Assembly (NCBI GenBank): GCA_023150915.1
Contig: JAKLKA010000058.1
Location: 1 to 40,975 of the forward strand
DNA: 40,975 bases
Direction: 5' to 3'
Source of the DNA: Polyangiaceae bacterium
Lineage (GTDB): Bacteria; Myxococcota_A; Polyangia; Polyangiales; Polyangiaceae
Below the pieces are notes generated by a model that was not told the DNA's origin, did no database searches, and worked only from the letters and a program-made list of their open reading frames with translations. This document shows positions 1-37,905 of this stretch, piece after piece; position 1 is the first letter of the stretch; every line of letters begins with the position of its first letter. The translations under genes and the position numbers were made by a program.

Positions 1-254
1 CCGCCGGTGCCGCCGCCGCCCGCCGCGCCACCGCTCCCGGCAGCGCCGCCGCTGGCGCTACCCGCTGCGCCGCCCGAGCCGCCACCGCCGGACGTGCCGC
101 CGCCAGAGGTGCCGCCACCGCCGGACGTGCCGCCACCGCCAGAGGTGCCGCCCGACGAGCTTCCCCCAGAGCCGCCACCGTCATCGTCGGACCCACAGCC
201 CAAAAGCCCGACAGAGCAGAGCACCACGACCGCGCAGAAGGTGGATGTACGCAT
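1..254 (-). CDS. Gly/Ser-rich lipoprotein, N-terminal part only
   Basis: The gene runs off the left edge of the window; only the first 84 codons are present. It starts at an ATG at 254 with a lipoprotein signal peptide: MRTS, a hydrophobic stretch, then the lipobox LLGC with the modified Cys at residue 20. The mature end continues with GSDDDGGG and then a low-complexity spacer of GGTSGGG and GGAAGS units to the window edge. The cysteine is followed by GSDDD, a start shared almost exactly by the lipoproteins at 2486 and 21662, so it probably belongs to the same surface set. The functional domain lies outside the window, so no function can be given. The lipoprotein call is secure; the role is unknown. 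Confidence 0.8.
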   Translation of the reverse strand, partial: MRTSTFCAVVVLCSVGLLGCGSDDDGGGSGGSSSGGTSGGGGTSGGGGTSGGGTSGGGGSGGAAGSASGGAAGSGGAAGGGGTG

Positions 255-310
255 GATCGCGCAGCATAGCTCACGCCGCCGCCCAGCGAAATGGCCTCGG
301 TCAGGCCACC

Positions 311-454
311 TCACCCGCTCGCGCGGACCTCCAGCGCTTCCCAGCGATCTCGGAGCGCCGCCGCTTCGGCGCGGGCGCGGTCGAGCTCGGCGAGGCGTCT
401 TTGACGGCCTGCCGACCATGCCTTCGTGGTGGCAGCCGACGCCTCACTTCCCAC
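311..454 (-). CDS. Possible small coiled-coil protein (47 aa)
   Basis: A short frame begins with a GTG at 454, overlapping the last codons of the exported-protein gene that ends at 444, and stops at 311. Its second half is a charged heptad-like helix (RLAELDRARAEAAALRDRWE) and its codons there have the G/C-rich third positions typical of real genes in this window. The overlap with the upstream stop would allow translational coupling. Against it: no clear ribosome binding site, a weak N-terminal half and very short length. It may be the end of a decayed gene instead. Low confidence. Confidence 0.22.
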   Translation of the reverse strand: MGSEASAATTKAWSAGRQRRLAELDRARAEAAALRDRWEALEVRASG

Positions 455-1118
455 ACGCTGCCGGCAGCACCGCGCCCAGCACCGGCAAGATGGCGTTGCG
501 GCCGAGGTCGAATCCAAAGCCCATGGCCCAGCTCTCGCCGCCAAGCCCGATGAAGTCACGGCGCCCGAGCGCCCAGACGTGCAGACCGCTCAGCACATAG
601 GTCGCGATCACTCCGCGGCGGCAGTGCACGGCTTCGATCAGCGTCTGGTAGAACGGGTAGCCCTCGACGCGGAGCGCGGCGCCAAACCCCGCGAGGTGCG
701 TGCTGTCGTCCTTGCTCTGCCAGAGCGGCGCTCCGGCCAGGCCGAGGGTGAGCGCCGGGCCGGGCGGCTGGTGGATCAAGAGGCCGGCGCCGAGGCCAGT
801 CGCCAGAAAGCCGAGCCGCGGTGAGTCGAAGTCGAGCGGGCGTTGCGCGTCCATACCGAAGATGGCCGTGACGCCCACCGTGTCCGAGAGGCGATGGACG
901 CGGATCTGATCTTCGAACGACAGCGACAGGATGCGCGCGCGCAGCAGCGTCGAATGCCCCACACCGACGCGCACCGAGCCGATGGCGTCGAGATCGATCG
1001 GGGGCTCTTCGGCGCGGGCGGCGGTGGAAACGGCGAGGGCGAAACCGACCACCCCGATGCAGCGCCGGAGTCGGGGCTGCCCGAGCAGCGAGACAGCCAA
1101 TAGCCAACGACGGGCCAC
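444..1118 (-). CDS. Exported protein of unknown function (224 aa)
   Basis: The start is set by the GTG at 1118, preceded five bases upstream by AGGAAGG; the frame is open further upstream but that part has no protein-like character. The N-terminus is a signal peptide: VARRWLLAVSLLG, a hydrophobic core around IGVVGFALAVS, and a likely cleavage at ARAEE near residue 44, with no lipobox cysteine. The mature part alternates short hydrophobic strands with glycines (LGFLATGLGAGLLIH, TLGLAGAPLW, GFGAALRVEGYPFYQ) and ends in Gly-rich strands. This resembles a small outer-membrane or periplasmic beta-barrel, but that is inference from pattern. It lies downstream of the pirin gene on the same strand, 71 bp away, and could share its transcript. 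The product family was not recognised. Confidence 0.7.
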   Translation of the reverse strand: MARRWLLAVSLLGQPRLRRCIGVVGFALAVSTAARAEEPPIDLDAIGSVRVGVGHSTLLRARILSLSFEDQIRVHRLSDTVGVTAIFGMDAQRPLDFDSPRLGFLATGLGAGLLIHQPPGPALTLGLAGAPLWQSKDDSTHLAGFGAALRVEGYPFYQTLIEAVHCRRGVIATYVLSGLHVWALGRRDFIGLGGESWAMGFGFDLGRNAILPVLGAVLPAACGK

Positions 1119-33438: not shown

Positions 33439-34545
33439 ATGTCGAACGAGCCCGCCCTCGCCCTGCCCAAAGCCCGCCGCGCGGTCGTGGTCTGGCTGTG
33501 GCTGTGCGTGCTCGCGCTCTTGACCATGATCGTGCTCGGCGGCGTGGTGCGGCTGACCGGCTCCGGGCTCTCGATCACGGTCTGGCAGCCGATCATGGGC
33601 GCCATCCCCCCGCTGTCGGACGCCGACTGGGAGCACGCCTTCTCGCTCTACCGCCAGAGCCCCGAGTTCCGCCACGTGAACCCCGACATGACCCTGGCGG
33701 GGTTCAAGACCATCTTCTGGCCCGAATACCTGCACCGCCTGCTGGGCCGCAGCATCGGTGTGCTGGTGGCGGTGCCGTGCGTGGTGTTCTTGATGCAAGG
33801 CGCCCTCGGTCGCCGACTGGTGCGCCGGCTGGTGGTGCTGTTCGCGCTCGGCGGTCTGCAAGGTCTTTTCGGCTGGCTGATGGTGGCCAGCGGCCTGGTC
33901 GATCTGCCGCACGTCAGTCACTATCGCCTGACCCTGCACCTGGGCATGGGCTTCTTGCTCTTCGGGTATGCGACCTGGCTCGCCATCGAGCAAACGCTGG
34001 GCGGCTTCGTGGTCAGCGAGGGTTGGCCAGGGCTGCGGCGCGCAGTGGCGGCGTTCACCGGGCTTGCGGCGCTGACCGCGCTCTCGGGCGGGCTGGTGGC
34101 TGGGCTGCGCGCCGGACACGCGTTCCCGACCTTTCCGCTCATGGCCGGCGCCTGGGTTCCCACCGGCCTCACGGCCCTCTCACCCGCTTGGCGCAACGGC
34201 TTCGATAACGCCATCACCGTGATGTTTCAGCATCGGGTGCTCGGCATCGGCGTCTCGGTGTTCGCGCTCGGGCTGGCTTGGGCCTGCCGGGCGCAGCGCG
34301 TACCGCGCCATGCACGCCTGGGCTTCGATCTGATCGTGGCCGCGGTGGCCGTGCAGGTGACCCTGGGGATCACCACGGTGGTGATGCACGTGCCCGTCGC
34401 CATCGCCGCTGCGCACCAGGGCAACGCCGCGCTGGTGCTGGCAGCGGCGCTTTACACCAGCTACGCCCTCACCCGCTGGCCCGAGCACGTGGAGCTGCCG
34501 ATTGGGCTCCGCGCCTCGCCGGGCGCGCTGCCCCAGGCGACCTGA
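33439..34545 (+). CDS. ctaA: Heme A synthase, COX15/CtaA type (368 aa)
   Basis: Heme A synthase converts heme O to heme A for cytochrome oxidase. Eight membrane helices are visible, and the four heme-ligand histidines are present: His99 in FWPEYLHRLLGR, His167 in YRLTLHLG, His265 in MFQHRVLG and His326 in AAHQGNAALV. The segment FKTIFWPEYLHR with its long first loop is the COX15 style of alphaproteobacteria and mitochondria rather than the short Bacillus style with a cysteine pair. No cysteine pair is seen. The expected first helix WLWLCVLALLTMIVLGGVVR is followed by LTGSGLS. No other oxidase-assembly genes are in the window, so ctaA is away from the oxidase operon here. Confidence 0.93.
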   Translation: MSNEPALALPKARRAVVVWLWLCVLALLTMIVLGGVVRLTGSGLSITVWQPIMGAIPPLSDADWEHAFSLYRQSPEFRHVNPDMTLAGFKTIFWPEYLHRLLGRSIGVLVAVPCVVFLMQGALGRRLVRRLVVLFALGGLQGLFGWLMVASGLVDLPHVSHYRLTLHLGMGFLLFGYATWLAIEQTLGGFVVSEGWPGLRRAVAAFTGLAALTALSGGLVAGLRAGHAFPTFPLMAGAWVPTGLTALSPAWRNGFDNAITVMFQHRVLGIGVSVFALGLAWACRAQRVPRHARLGFDLIVAAVAVQVTLGITTVVMHVPVAIAAAHQGNAALVLAAALYTSYALTRWPEHVELPIGLRASPGALPQAT

Positions 34546-34928: not shown

Positions 34929-37187
34929 TCACACCGGGGTCGCTTCGACCGGCGGCGGCAGGTCTTCGGGACCGGTCAACCAGGCGGGCGCCGGAACGTT
35001 GGTGCGCCGGTAGAACCCTCCGCAGAACACCTTTCGCGCGCAGGTCGCACATCCGGGCTCGAACGAGCGTTGGGTGCGAAGGTAGTCGAACAGGTTCACT
35101 CCCTGGTCGTTCAGATAGAGCACCTCGCGGTCGAGCACGACCGGGTCGGGTGCCAGGAAGCGCTCGTACCCCGCCAAGAGACACCACGGCAGGTTGAACA
35201 CGCGGATCCGCAGGCGCTCGGACCACTCGTCGATCAGCCGCATCACGCTCTCTTGGGCCGCGGGCGCGTCGGGCGCAACGGAGTCGGTCGCAGGCCCGAA
35301 CGGCGTCACCGCCTGAATGTCGAGCTGATCGACGCCCAGCGTGAGCGCCAGCGCTGCCACCGCCGCCAGGTGCGGCAGATTCGAGCGCGTCAGGGTGAGC
35401 GCCAGCGCAAGCTCCACCCCGGGCGGCGCCGCGCGCTTCACGTTTCGGATCCCTTCCACGGTTTGATCGAAGGCCTCGGGCACGCCCACGTTCTCGCCGT
35501 GGATCGCGGGGCTGGGGCCGTGCAGGCTGAAGCGTATGCGAGCCGCGCCGCTCATCGCCAGCTGCCGCGCGTACCCCGGGTAGAACGCGCGTCGTCCGTT
35601 GGTGGTCAGGGTCACGGGGTCGTAGCCGATGCTGCGCGCAAAGCCGATCAGCTCGAACAGTTGCGGATGGAGCGTCGGCTCGCCGCCCTCCAGCTCGAGC
35701 CGGGTCGCGCCCAGGCGGCGGTGCTCGGTCAACAGCTCGCGCTGCCGCCCGTAGTCTCCATCCACTTGCGCGCCGGTGCCGGTCGCACAGAACGTGCAGC
35801 GGTTGTTGCACTTCCGGGTGGTACACAAGACCACCGTCTTCGGCCCGCGCATTGCCGCAAGCCTCTGCTCGAACGTCTGCTTGAAGGTCTCGAGCTCCCG
35901 TGGGCTCACCGTCTCGTTGGTCGGGCTGGCGTGCTGCTGGAAGTGCGGGCCATAGTCGGCCACGTGGGGCAGCGCACGCAGCGTTCCCGCGAGGCGCGTG
36001 CCAGGCAGCGGCGTCGCAAACTGCACACTGGGCGCGGCCCCGGTGCGCCGGCAAAGGTCCTGCGCGTACGCCAGGGTCTGATTGATCTCTTCACGGGTCT
36101 CGCTCGGAAGCCCGATGATGAAGTGCACCAAGACCGGCAGGCCCACGGCCGCTGCGTGCTCGGCGACGCGGCCGATGTGCGCAAGGTCGAGATCCTTCCC
36201 GACGACCTCGCTGACCACCCGCTGAACGCCGCTCTCGGCGCTGACGCTGAGAGTGGTGATCTGGCCCCGCAGGGCGTCGATCTGGGGGTTGCTCAGGTGG
36301 TCGGCTCGCAGCCCGTTGGGAATTTCGAGCCCGAGCCCCCGCTGGCGCGCCAGCGCGAGCAGCGCGTCGAAGTGACCGACGTTCGCGTTGCAGAGCTCGT
36401 CCAGCACGTGCACCCGACGGGCACCCAGCCGCAGCAGCTGGTCCAGATGGCGCGCCATGGCCGGCGGCGAGAGCCGCCGCTGACGCTTCGGTGCGCCGGG
36501 TGCCAGCCCCGGGTTCGACGAGCAGTGGATGCAGCGATACGGGCAGCCGCGCGAGGTGATCAGCGGCAGCGAGTGGCCGTCGATGGGAAAGGCCCAGCTC
36601 GGGCGTCCCAGCTCGGCCATCACCCGCTGGTTCAACGCGAAGCGTGCCTCGAGGTCGATGCGCTCCCAGGCCGGCAGCGGCAGCGCGTCCAGATCCGGCG
36701 GCTCTCTTCCCAGCACCACCTGCCGCGTGGACGGCAGGCCTTCCACCAGCGACGCCAGCGTCGCTTCGGCTTCGTAGCGCAGCACCGCGCGAACCTCGGG
36801 ATAGGCCGCCAGGATCTCGGCGCCCGGCACGTCGATGAAGTGTTGCCCGCTCTGGTAGAGATCGGCGAGCACCACCGGGCGCCCGGCAACGCGCGCCAGC
36901 ACTTCCGCGATCATCGGGTCCCGACCGGGCGGGCGGTGAAACGGCGTTTGCGCGAGCACGAACACGTCGGCCTCGGGCAGCGCGCCGGGCAGCGCGCCCA
37001 GCTGCAGCCGGTTCGAGCCGACCCGCTGGACCTCGGGCCGCGACAGCGCGTCGTCCACGTGCACCTGGTGCCCGGCTGCCGCCAGCGCCCCCCCAGCGGA
37101 CAGCGCGCCCAGGTCGGCGAAGTACGGGTAGTCGACGAAGTCGCGGGACACGACCAGCGGCGGGAAGACGACCGCGACCTTCGCCAT
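34929..37187 (-). CDS. Tandem double radical SAM protein with B12-like N-terminus (752 aa)
   Basis: Two complete radical SAM domains lie in one chain. Residues 1-165 resemble the Rossmann-like cobalamin-binding domain of BchE-type enzymes (VAVVFPPLVVSRDFVDYPYF) but without the DxHxxG cobalamin-His motif. The first radical SAM core has CPYRCIHC (Cys215, Cys219, Cys222), ESG at 318-320 and the sheet LVHFIIGLPSETREE. The second has CNNRCTFC (Cys460, Cys464, Cys467), then the SAM-binding GGEPTLHP at 501-508 and RFSLHG near 552, and ends with CATCARKVFC (Cys713, Cys716, Cys722), a SPASM/twitch-like set of cysteines for an extra iron-sulfur cluster. The product should carry three clusters. Reaction and substrate are unknown. 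The ATG at 37187 opens directly on the first beta strand. Confidence 0.9.
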   Translation of the reverse strand: MAKVAVVFPPLVVSRDFVDYPYFADLGALSAGGALAAAGHQVHVDDALSRPEVQRVGSNRLQLGALPGALPEADVFVLAQTPFHRPPGRDPMIAEVLARVAGRPVVLADLYQSGQHFIDVPGAEILAAYPEVRAVLRYEAEATLASLVEGLPSTRQVVLGREPPDLDALPLPAWERIDLEARFALNQRVMAELGRPSWAFPIDGHSLPLITSRGCPYRCIHCSSNPGLAPGAPKRQRRLSPPAMARHLDQLLRLGARRVHVLDELCNANVGHFDALLALARQRGLGLEIPNGLRADHLSNPQIDALRGQITTLSVSAESGVQRVVSEVVGKDLDLAHIGRVAEHAAAVGLPVLVHFIIGLPSETREEINQTLAYAQDLCRRTGAAPSVQFATPLPGTRLAGTLRALPHVADYGPHFQQHASPTNETVSPRELETFKQTFEQRLAAMRGPKTVVLCTTRKCNNRCTFCATGTGAQVDGDYGRQRELLTEHRRLGATRLELEGGEPTLHPQLFELIGFARSIGYDPVTLTTNGRRAFYPGYARQLAMSGAARIRFSLHGPSPAIHGENVGVPEAFDQTVEGIRNVKRAAPPGVELALALTLTRSNLPHLAAVAALALTLGVDQLDIQAVTPFGPATDSVAPDAPAAQESVMRLIDEWSERLRIRVFNLPWCLLAGYERFLAPDPVVLDREVLYLNDQGVNLFDYLRTQRSFEPGCATCARKVFCGGFYRRTNVPAPAWLTGPEDLPPPVEATPV

Positions 37188-37269: not shown

Positions 37270-37905
37270 ATGAGACGCTGGGCGTCGGCGATGAGCCTCA
37301 CTGCGGCATTGGTCGCGGCACCGAATGCGCTCGCGGTCGAGAACGACTGGGAGGGCGACTACGGCCAGACGGCAGAGCGTCGCAGCGACTTCACGGCCGG
37401 CGTGTCGTTCGGCCTCTTCACCGGAGCCGCCTACGGGTACCCGAACAAGGCGGGGAAGATCGACGACGATCGTTACGTGGCGGACACCGGCGTCGGCTTC
37501 GGCACCGCACAGACCCTGTGGCTGGGCGGCGCGCTCCGCGACTGGTTCACGTTCGCCATCGGGTACACCAGCCTGGGTTACTCCGCGAACGACCTCGATG
37601 CCGAGGGTTTCGGTGTGCTCTTCCGGGTCGAGGCGTTCCCCCTCTGGTCACAGGGCGGGGTGTGGCGAGACGCCGGCGTGTACACCGACTTCGGCATCGG
37701 CGGCATGAAGCTGAAGTCCGGCGGCGATACCGAGGCCGACGGCGGCGCGCTCAGCATCATCGGCCTCGGGGCGTTCTGGGAGCCGGTGCGTTTCAGCATC
37801 TTCTCGTTCGGGCCCAACATCGAATACGTGCACGCCTACAGCCGCACGCTGCACCTGAGCAGCGCCACCGTGGGCGCGCGCCTGGTGCTGTACACCCGGC
37901 CCTGA
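37270..37905 (+). CDS. Probable small outer-membrane beta-barrel protein (211 aa)
   Basis: The N-terminus MRRWASAMSLTAALVAAPNALA is a Sec signal with cleavage at ALA-VEN. The mature protein alternates hydrophobic and polar residues in barrel-like strands separated by turns: DFTAGVSFGLFTGAAYGYPN, GVGFGTAQTLWLGGALRDWF, FTFAIGYTSLGYSANDLDA, GFGVLFRVEAFPLWSQGG, AGVYTDFGIGGMKLKSGG, LSIIGLGAFWEPVRFSIFSF, SATVGARLVLYTRP. About eight strands fit the size of OmpA/OmpW-like barrels. No family-specific motif was recognised, and the last residue is not aromatic. It is divergent from the tandem radical SAM gene with an 82-bp gap. Function unknown. Confidence 0.76.
   Translation: MRRWASAMSLTAALVAAPNALAVENDWEGDYGQTAERRSDFTAGVSFGLFTGAAYGYPNKAGKIDDDRYVADTGVGFGTAQTLWLGGALRDWFTFAIGYTSLGYSANDLDAEGFGVLFRVEAFPLWSQGGVWRDAGVYTDFGIGGMKLKSGGDTEADGGALSIIGLGAFWEPVRFSIFSFGPNIEYVHAYSRTLHLSSATVGARLVLYTRP

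Follow-up and report, generated by a model that had tools for sequence, protein, structure and literature searches.

The window analysed here, a 40,975-nucleotide contig of a Polyangiaceae bacterium, contains a gene whose single product appears to carry two radical SAM domains, and this raises the questions of whether the fusion is genuine, what its two halves do and on what substrate they might act. The gene (here called the tandem gene), its parts and its neighbours are as follows:

34929..37187 (-): tandem radical SAM gene, 752 amino acids, with a homologue-supported ATG start
36693..37187 (-): Rossmann-like, B12-binding-type N-terminal domain, residues 1-165 (from the structural model, fold matches and conservation)
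35898..36590 (-): first radical SAM domain, residues 200-430, limits approximate (Pfam, fold and profile)
36522..36545 (-): CPYRCIHC, residues 215-222, first SAM-cluster motif (in 52 of 52 homologues)
35208..35852 (-): second radical SAM domain, residues 446-660, limits approximate (GGE at 501-503; Pfam, fold and profile)
35787..35810 (-): CNNRCTFC, residues 460-467, second SAM-cluster motif (in 51 of 52 homologues)
35013..35195 (-): residues 665-725, with C669, C713, C716 and C722 as proposed ligands of one putative auxiliary cluster (in 52 of 52 homologues)
33439-34545: neighbouring gene, convergent with the tandem gene, which from its sequence we take to be ctaA-like
37270-37905: neighbouring gene, divergent from the tandem gene, whose product is small and probably exported

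The reading frame is uninterrupted from its ATG at 37187, which agrees with the starts of the aligned homologues; an alternative GTG upstream, at 37301, would yield 790 amino acids. A first-pass annotation of this DNA had described two radical SAM domains fused in one chain, and this holds: both cysteine motifs lie in the one frame at the residues it gave, and Pfam PF04055 (Radical_SAM) matches two stretches of the protein (111.2 bits against a cut-off of 29.5; 7.7e-32 for the whole protein), so that both domains, each with its own CX3CX2C, belong to the radical SAM superfamily. A frameshift or assembly error joining two neighbouring genes was considered and rejected, given the intact frame and the end-to-end homologues in many genomes. 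Nine full-length homologues on named contigs align from end to end with 47-76% identity, and the protein was matched in 25 of 59 genomes at 1e-60 or better and in 63 of 282 Myxococcota genomes at 1e-80 or better (the host is counted in both figures; most matches are full length and some are partial). Named carriers include Polyangium fumosum DSM 14668 and Minicystis rosea DSM 24000. A contig search that reached close relatives only returned nine loci, all titled as myxobacterial groups or Deltaproteobacteria, and a plasmid search gave no match to the protein. The tandem architecture is confirmed as real and widespread in Myxococcota.

Conservation was followed in an alignment of 52 proteins, the window's own included (96 before identical copies were collapsed; L047, a contig-edge fragment, was dropped; here G, L and C numbers designate genomes, loci and contigs). 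C215, C219 and C222 are present in all 52, and C460, C464 and C467 in 51, the remaining protein being without the second triad. In the N-terminal domain Y-P (20-21), D109 and G114 are invariant, and D19 and H116 occur in 90% or more. Of the core motifs said to follow each triad, the second half has GGE at 501-503, and the first has D263-E264-L265 in its place. The three C-terminal cysteines that had been pointed out, Cys713, Cys716 and Cys722, are where they were said to be; Cys669, which had been missed, is equally invariant, so that a third cluster site is favoured by four tail cysteines present in 52 of 52 proteins. SPASM domains have a seven-cysteine motif ending in CX2CX5CX3C and hold two auxiliary clusters. 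In the tandem protein residues 713-722 form CX2CX5C but the cysteine of CX3C is absent, so that it is not a SPASM protein; it shares the CX2CX5C tail with SPASM/twitch maturases that resemble its second half in fold (SuiB, SkfB and anSME) or in sequence (PqqE), but differs from them in having only four invariant tail cysteines. These leave room for one auxiliary cluster, and we infer that they fit a single [4Fe-4S] cluster. Of the 80 residues that 90% of homologues conserve, the window's own second half (35013-35852) keeps 67, the third lowest value among chains with an intact triad, and it may be drifting.

The AlphaFold2 model of the protein (mean pLDDT 91.5, pTM 0.90) contains the anticipated Rossmann-like N-terminal region, and Foldseek and fold-comparison matches agree with the earlier assignment of a B12-type first half. 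The best VIA fold match is AprD4 (Z 27.5, rmsd 3.7, 409 residues aligned, model range 1..719), followed by MgmA (Z 25.6, model 3..453), CysS (Z 22.9, model 1..722), OxsB (Z 21.7, model 1..447) and TsrM (Z 21.4, model 1..447), and TokK is among the Foldseek matches. From about residue 446 onward the model matches viperin (Z 22.1), SuiB (22.1), SkfB (21.7), BlsE (21.5), MoaA (19.1) and anSME (19.0). The first half therefore folds like the cobalamin-dependent radical SAM enzymes, and the second half like members of the viperin/MoaA/SPASM group. By sequence the nearest solved relatives of the first half are MgmA and AprD4 (the latter the top profile match, 2.5e-26), and those of the second are PqqE, which is the best, and others. 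A Rossmann domain followed by a radical SAM domain, the arrangement of class 1 cobalamin-dependent enzymes, is seen in the model and in its fold matches; the class 1 enzymes OxsB, TsrM and TokK, as well as CysS and MgmA, share this fold with the first half, but in the tandem protein a second radical SAM domain follows and cobalamin is only putative.

Whether the first half uses cobalamin is a separate matter. AprD4, a radical SAM diol dehydratase and the top match both by fold and by profile, differs from the tandem protein in having one radical SAM domain, and it is not known to use cobalamin. The DxHxxG motif is absent from the first half, as had been noted; this says little about cobalamin, since the cofactor is bound without a His ligand in OxsB, TsrM and TokK, where an Asn, Arg or Trp from the loop that follows strand 3 lies beneath the cobalt (as described in an excerpt of PMC13331322, which gives two class 1 hallmarks: a β-hairpin that follows strand 5, and a lower-face residue supplied by the strand 3 loop). 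In the window this loop reads T-P-F-H-R-P-P, and 92% of the 52 proteins have P82 and 94% have R85. It is possible that the first half binds cobalamin. The first-half fold usually goes with methylation, and the second-half fold often with cross-linking or oxidation. Methylation is not obligatory, since AprD4 is a dehydratase (its substrate is paromamine, according to an excerpt of PMC5461906).

The layout as a whole belongs to no known family among those compared: for each of the best 25 of 69 NCBIfam families the score falls far short of the cut-off. HxsC4, HxsC and AhbD lead for the second half, and B12-type families (TIGR04013 and HpnJ, for example) for the first. The radical SAM core of HxsC4 and HxsC resembles the second half, but the protein stays below the cut-offs of both (98.6 of 500 bits and 81.2 of 267.9 bits, respectively). 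The searches made returned no full-length homologue with a known reaction, and a literature search returned no paper pairing two or tandem radical SAM domains with each other or with cobalamin. FbiC (FO synthase) is a characterised chain with two radical SAM domains. It differs from the tandem protein in layout and substrates, is not known to have a B12-type domain or an auxiliary-cluster tail, and does not appear for the tandem protein in the top 25 of 69 NCBIfam families. The earlier statement that no characterised enzyme was known with such a layout stands as far as our searches went. In other organisms the parts of FbiC are the separate proteins CofG and CofH (excerpt of PMC11917521).

In the window the tandem gene stands alone between the ctaA-like and small-protein genes; elsewhere it lies among further radical SAM genes. 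The proposed survey of full-length homologues and their gene neighbours, when carried out, connected the protein to the His-Xaa-Ser system (HxsA4, NF038313; HxsB, TIGR03978; HxsC4, NF038332; HxsD, TIGR03976; HxsD-like, NF038315), which is found in the same genomes and often in the same island. This pathway was proposed by Haft and Basu, as cited in an excerpt of PMC9062424 that also places HxsB and HxsC in a similarity network; literature searches on it named no product among the matches listed. The connection is not visible from the window, as the Hxs genes lie outside it, and a scan of the window for repeats found no place with three or more consecutive His-Xaa-Ser units. The host genome contains every part, spread over five contigs: HxsA4 on C166, HxsB on C159, HxsD (named by clustering), HxsD-like and the radical SAM family c2 on C4, HxsC4 on C282 and the tandem gene on C283.

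HxsB occurs in 98 of the 282 Myxococcota genomes and the tandem protein in 63, with both in 62 (Fisher p = 2e-35, kinship not corrected); the sole tandem genome with no HxsB match, G313, is 67% complete. Thirty-six HxsB genomes have no tandem gene, which is therefore not essential to every Hxs system. We picked by hand a subset of 80 of these genomes, favouring complete ones: 40 with the tandem gene, 20 with HxsB only and 20 with neither (from the rows listed, the last are mostly of families near the host). The HxsA4-type profile matched 40/40, 19/20 and 2/20 of these groups, respectively (some matches span the repeat alone), and the c2 profile 39/40, 17/20 and 1/20, both profiles having been built from loci of tandem genomes, which favours the tandem group. 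HxsC4 was matched at 1e-60 in 26/40, 1/20 and 0/20, and above its curated cut-off in 17/40, 0/20 and 0/20. Two control families were too rare to inform (TIGR03942 in 2 of 80 genomes; TIGR03470 in none of the 80 and in none of 14 control genomes). The near-exclusive occurrence of the tandem protein with HxsB and HxsA4-type peptides is shown for the genomes sampled, and is new.

Physical linkage points the same way. Within 50 kb of the tandem gene on the same contig, HxsB is found in 9 of 39 tandem genomes, HxsC4 in 10 (two of these, in G083 and G116, score under the cut-off), c2 in 17 and HxsA4 in 7; at least one of the four is linked in 22 of the 39, and in 16 if c2 is set aside. (G258 is left out of the 40 tandem genomes here, one of two matches was used for G029, G144 and G255, and a weak contig-edge HxsA4 in G315, at 2.8e-11, is omitted; it would make HxsA4 8 and leave the totals the same.) The identities of the neighbours come from profile scans, in which HxsB scored 549 bits (cut-off 370), HxsD 61.5 (50), HxsD-like 62.6 (41) and HxsC4 567 (500). 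Two further radical SAM families recur, c1 (about 300 amino acids) and c2 (about 600), each in 18 of 49 clustered loci, a number that includes duplicate fetches (L010/L065, L017/L060, L013/L075 and L016/L078). The neighbour maps come from a simple ORF caller, which gave none for L094 and misses short or unusual genes, many of the His-Gly-Ser peptides included. In L010, L011 and L015 the tandem gene, HxsD, HxsB and a His-Gly-Ser peptide gene share one neighbourhood, and in G048, a single contig, 40 kb hold 12 genes with 14 CX3CX2C motifs (one secreted protein is left out of the count), among them HxsB, HxsC4 and the tandem gene; HxsD is there also.

The peptides found in the locus scan consist of a leader and 7-20 consecutive repeats of His-Gly-Ser type, and many lie beside HxsB or HxsC4. 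NF038313 (HxsA4) is above its cut-off of 55 bits in five of the six peptides scanned (82.5-116.5 bits); the sixth, in L015, scores 44.1 bits, and its Tat signal 16.8 bits against 16.7. TIGR03979 (HxsA) had been tried as the substrate model and was rejected: its matches were weak, in 30 of 60 genomes, none over the cut-off, and they appeared in 6 of 14 control genomes as well, and the repeat peptides are HxsA4 instead. HxsA4-type peptides usually end in Trp, and among the loci scanned the ends are mostly HGSW in tandem genomes and HGQW in HxsB-only genomes. The tandem genome G022 has peptides with both endings, and G041, with HxsB only, has another repeat, His-Arg-Ser/His-Ser-Ser. Two adjacent HxsA4-type genes, with 13 and 18 repeats, are present in G222 (L083:2132-2767(+)).

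HxsA4 and HxsB thus accompany the tandem gene in the same genomes and neighbourhoods, as befits a component of the HxsA4 system, and since it accompanies His-Gly-Ser peptide genes it probably takes part in modifying that peptide. Our main reading, to which we give a probability of roughly 0.6, is that the tandem protein is one of the radical SAM proteins that mature HxsA4 peptides in the HxsA4 branch of the His-Xaa-Ser system of Myxococcota. HxsA4 peptides would be modified by HxsB, HxsC4 and several more radical SAM proteins, the tandem protein included, its first half (B12-type fold, putative cobalamin) performing one radical step on the peptide and its second half (twitch-like, one putative auxiliary cluster) another. 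It would be an additional candidate maturation step for the pathway.

We infer that the substrate of the protein is the peptide and not a small molecule, and this has to be weighed against a rather unlikely alternative, in which the protein makes a small molecule or cofactor needed by the Hxs enzymes or by the finished peptide and leaves the peptide itself untouched. Enzymes of small molecules (AprD4, aminoglycoside; BlsE, nucleoside; viperin, nucleotides) rank beside SuiB, SkfB and MgmA among its nearest folds; Radical_SAM is the only domain Pfam finds in the chain, so no leader-recognition domain is seen there; and some islands also carry unrelated B12-type and methyltransferase genes. Yet the three best other matches of the tandem protein in the host genome are c2, HxsC4 and a radical SAM gene beside HxsB, so that the nearest host paralogues of its second half are Hxs-linked, and the HxsA4-type matches in 19 of the 20 HxsB-only genomes, all without the tandem gene, mean that not all such peptides require its product. 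We consider it improbable that the association is phylogenetic hitch-hiking, with the tandem protein serving an unrelated pathway in large-genome Myxococcota rich in radical SAM proteins. The co-occurrence figures ignore kinship, the control families are uninformative, and in the host the tandem and Hxs genes are unlinked, all of which would suit such an accident; it sits poorly, however, with linkage in 22 of the 39 genomes tabulated (16 if c2 is set aside), with HxsC4 above its cut-off in tandem genomes but in none of the HxsB-only ones, and with the agreement of tandem and HxsB presence and absence among the rows listed for f1 and f5, the families in which both states occur.

If maturation of HxsA4 is the role, do the two halves work as one catalyst? 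The first-pass annotation had proposed two coupled radical steps on one substrate, and a single catalyst whose halves act sequentially on one bound substrate, as in FbiC, has in its favour that precedent (excerpt of PMC11917521) and the presence of both halves in one chain in all 52 aligned proteins. The genomes in which the halves have come apart tell against it. G029, of the host's own family, has two full-length tandem copies about 25 kb apart on one contig. In one of them the first triad is retained, as are 79 of 81 conserved first-half residues, but three serines stand in place of the second triad and only 41 of 80 second-half residues remain; the other has lost the first triad (23/81) and keeps the second (79/80). 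In the latter copy D-Y-P-Y-F, T-P-F-H-R-P-P and S-G-Q-H are gone along with the first triad, so it is probably the first head that these motifs serve. Three further genomes, G060, G065 and G258, encode each half in a gene of its own, the two genes lying on different contigs. In G258 the first half is encoded by a frame of 758 residues, and in G060 and G065 the chain with the second half also contains another radical SAM domain. With the G029 activities on two chains and the halves of three other genomes in separate genes, the steps need not be coupled inside a single chain; the halves could still be coupled in a heterodimer, and we regard the coupled catalyst as unlikely. The pattern in these sequences suggests two separable catalysts within one pathway and fits this better than a single coupled active site; the two heads would be independent catalysts joined for supply or order. 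The named carriers and the natural split and half-dead variants allow each half to be tested separately. In G065 (L224/L225) the first half stands alone on one contig (489 amino acids), and another contig encodes a chain of 1050 amino acids in which a decayed first half is joined to the second half and to a third radical SAM domain.

Carrying the HxsA4 maturation reading further, one may picture, tentatively and with some doubt, a multi-enzyme radical line working on (His-Gly-Ser)n-Trp, in which the fused B12-type/twitch-type enzyme installs two modifications per repeat and the outcome is a histidine polymer dense with modifications, part of which may be Tat-exported. Such a product would define a RiPP class exceeding every one known to us in its number of radical SAM steps.

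Several other genes of these islands deserve mention. A model of HxsD, compared by Foldseek with an RRE-like leader binder in mind, had no match at 0.001 or better (the best, at 7.2e-3, was a ribosomal protein S6 permutant). Small proteins similar to one another are encoded near HxsD or HxsA4 (L169:6667-7164(+), L180:4609-5025(+) and L010:3955-4317(-)); some have a twin-arginine-like start, and no NCBIfam family matched them. Two genes from the tandem gene in G048, a 601-amino-acid chain (L134:16901-18706(-)) contains both CNQNCTYC and CNQACRFC and matches the HxsC4, HxsC and MoaA models in two stretches, below their cut-offs. A fusion of radical SAM and methyltransferase domains (L015:3146-5068(-)) recurs near Hxs genes. 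Finally, L011:5512-8205(-) and L074:16598-19765(+) encode large proteins with a Rossmann-like start, a radical-SAM-like stretch with CTFCLDN and a GYPxCCVxAF region, and that of L074 is also fused to a c1-type radical SAM domain.
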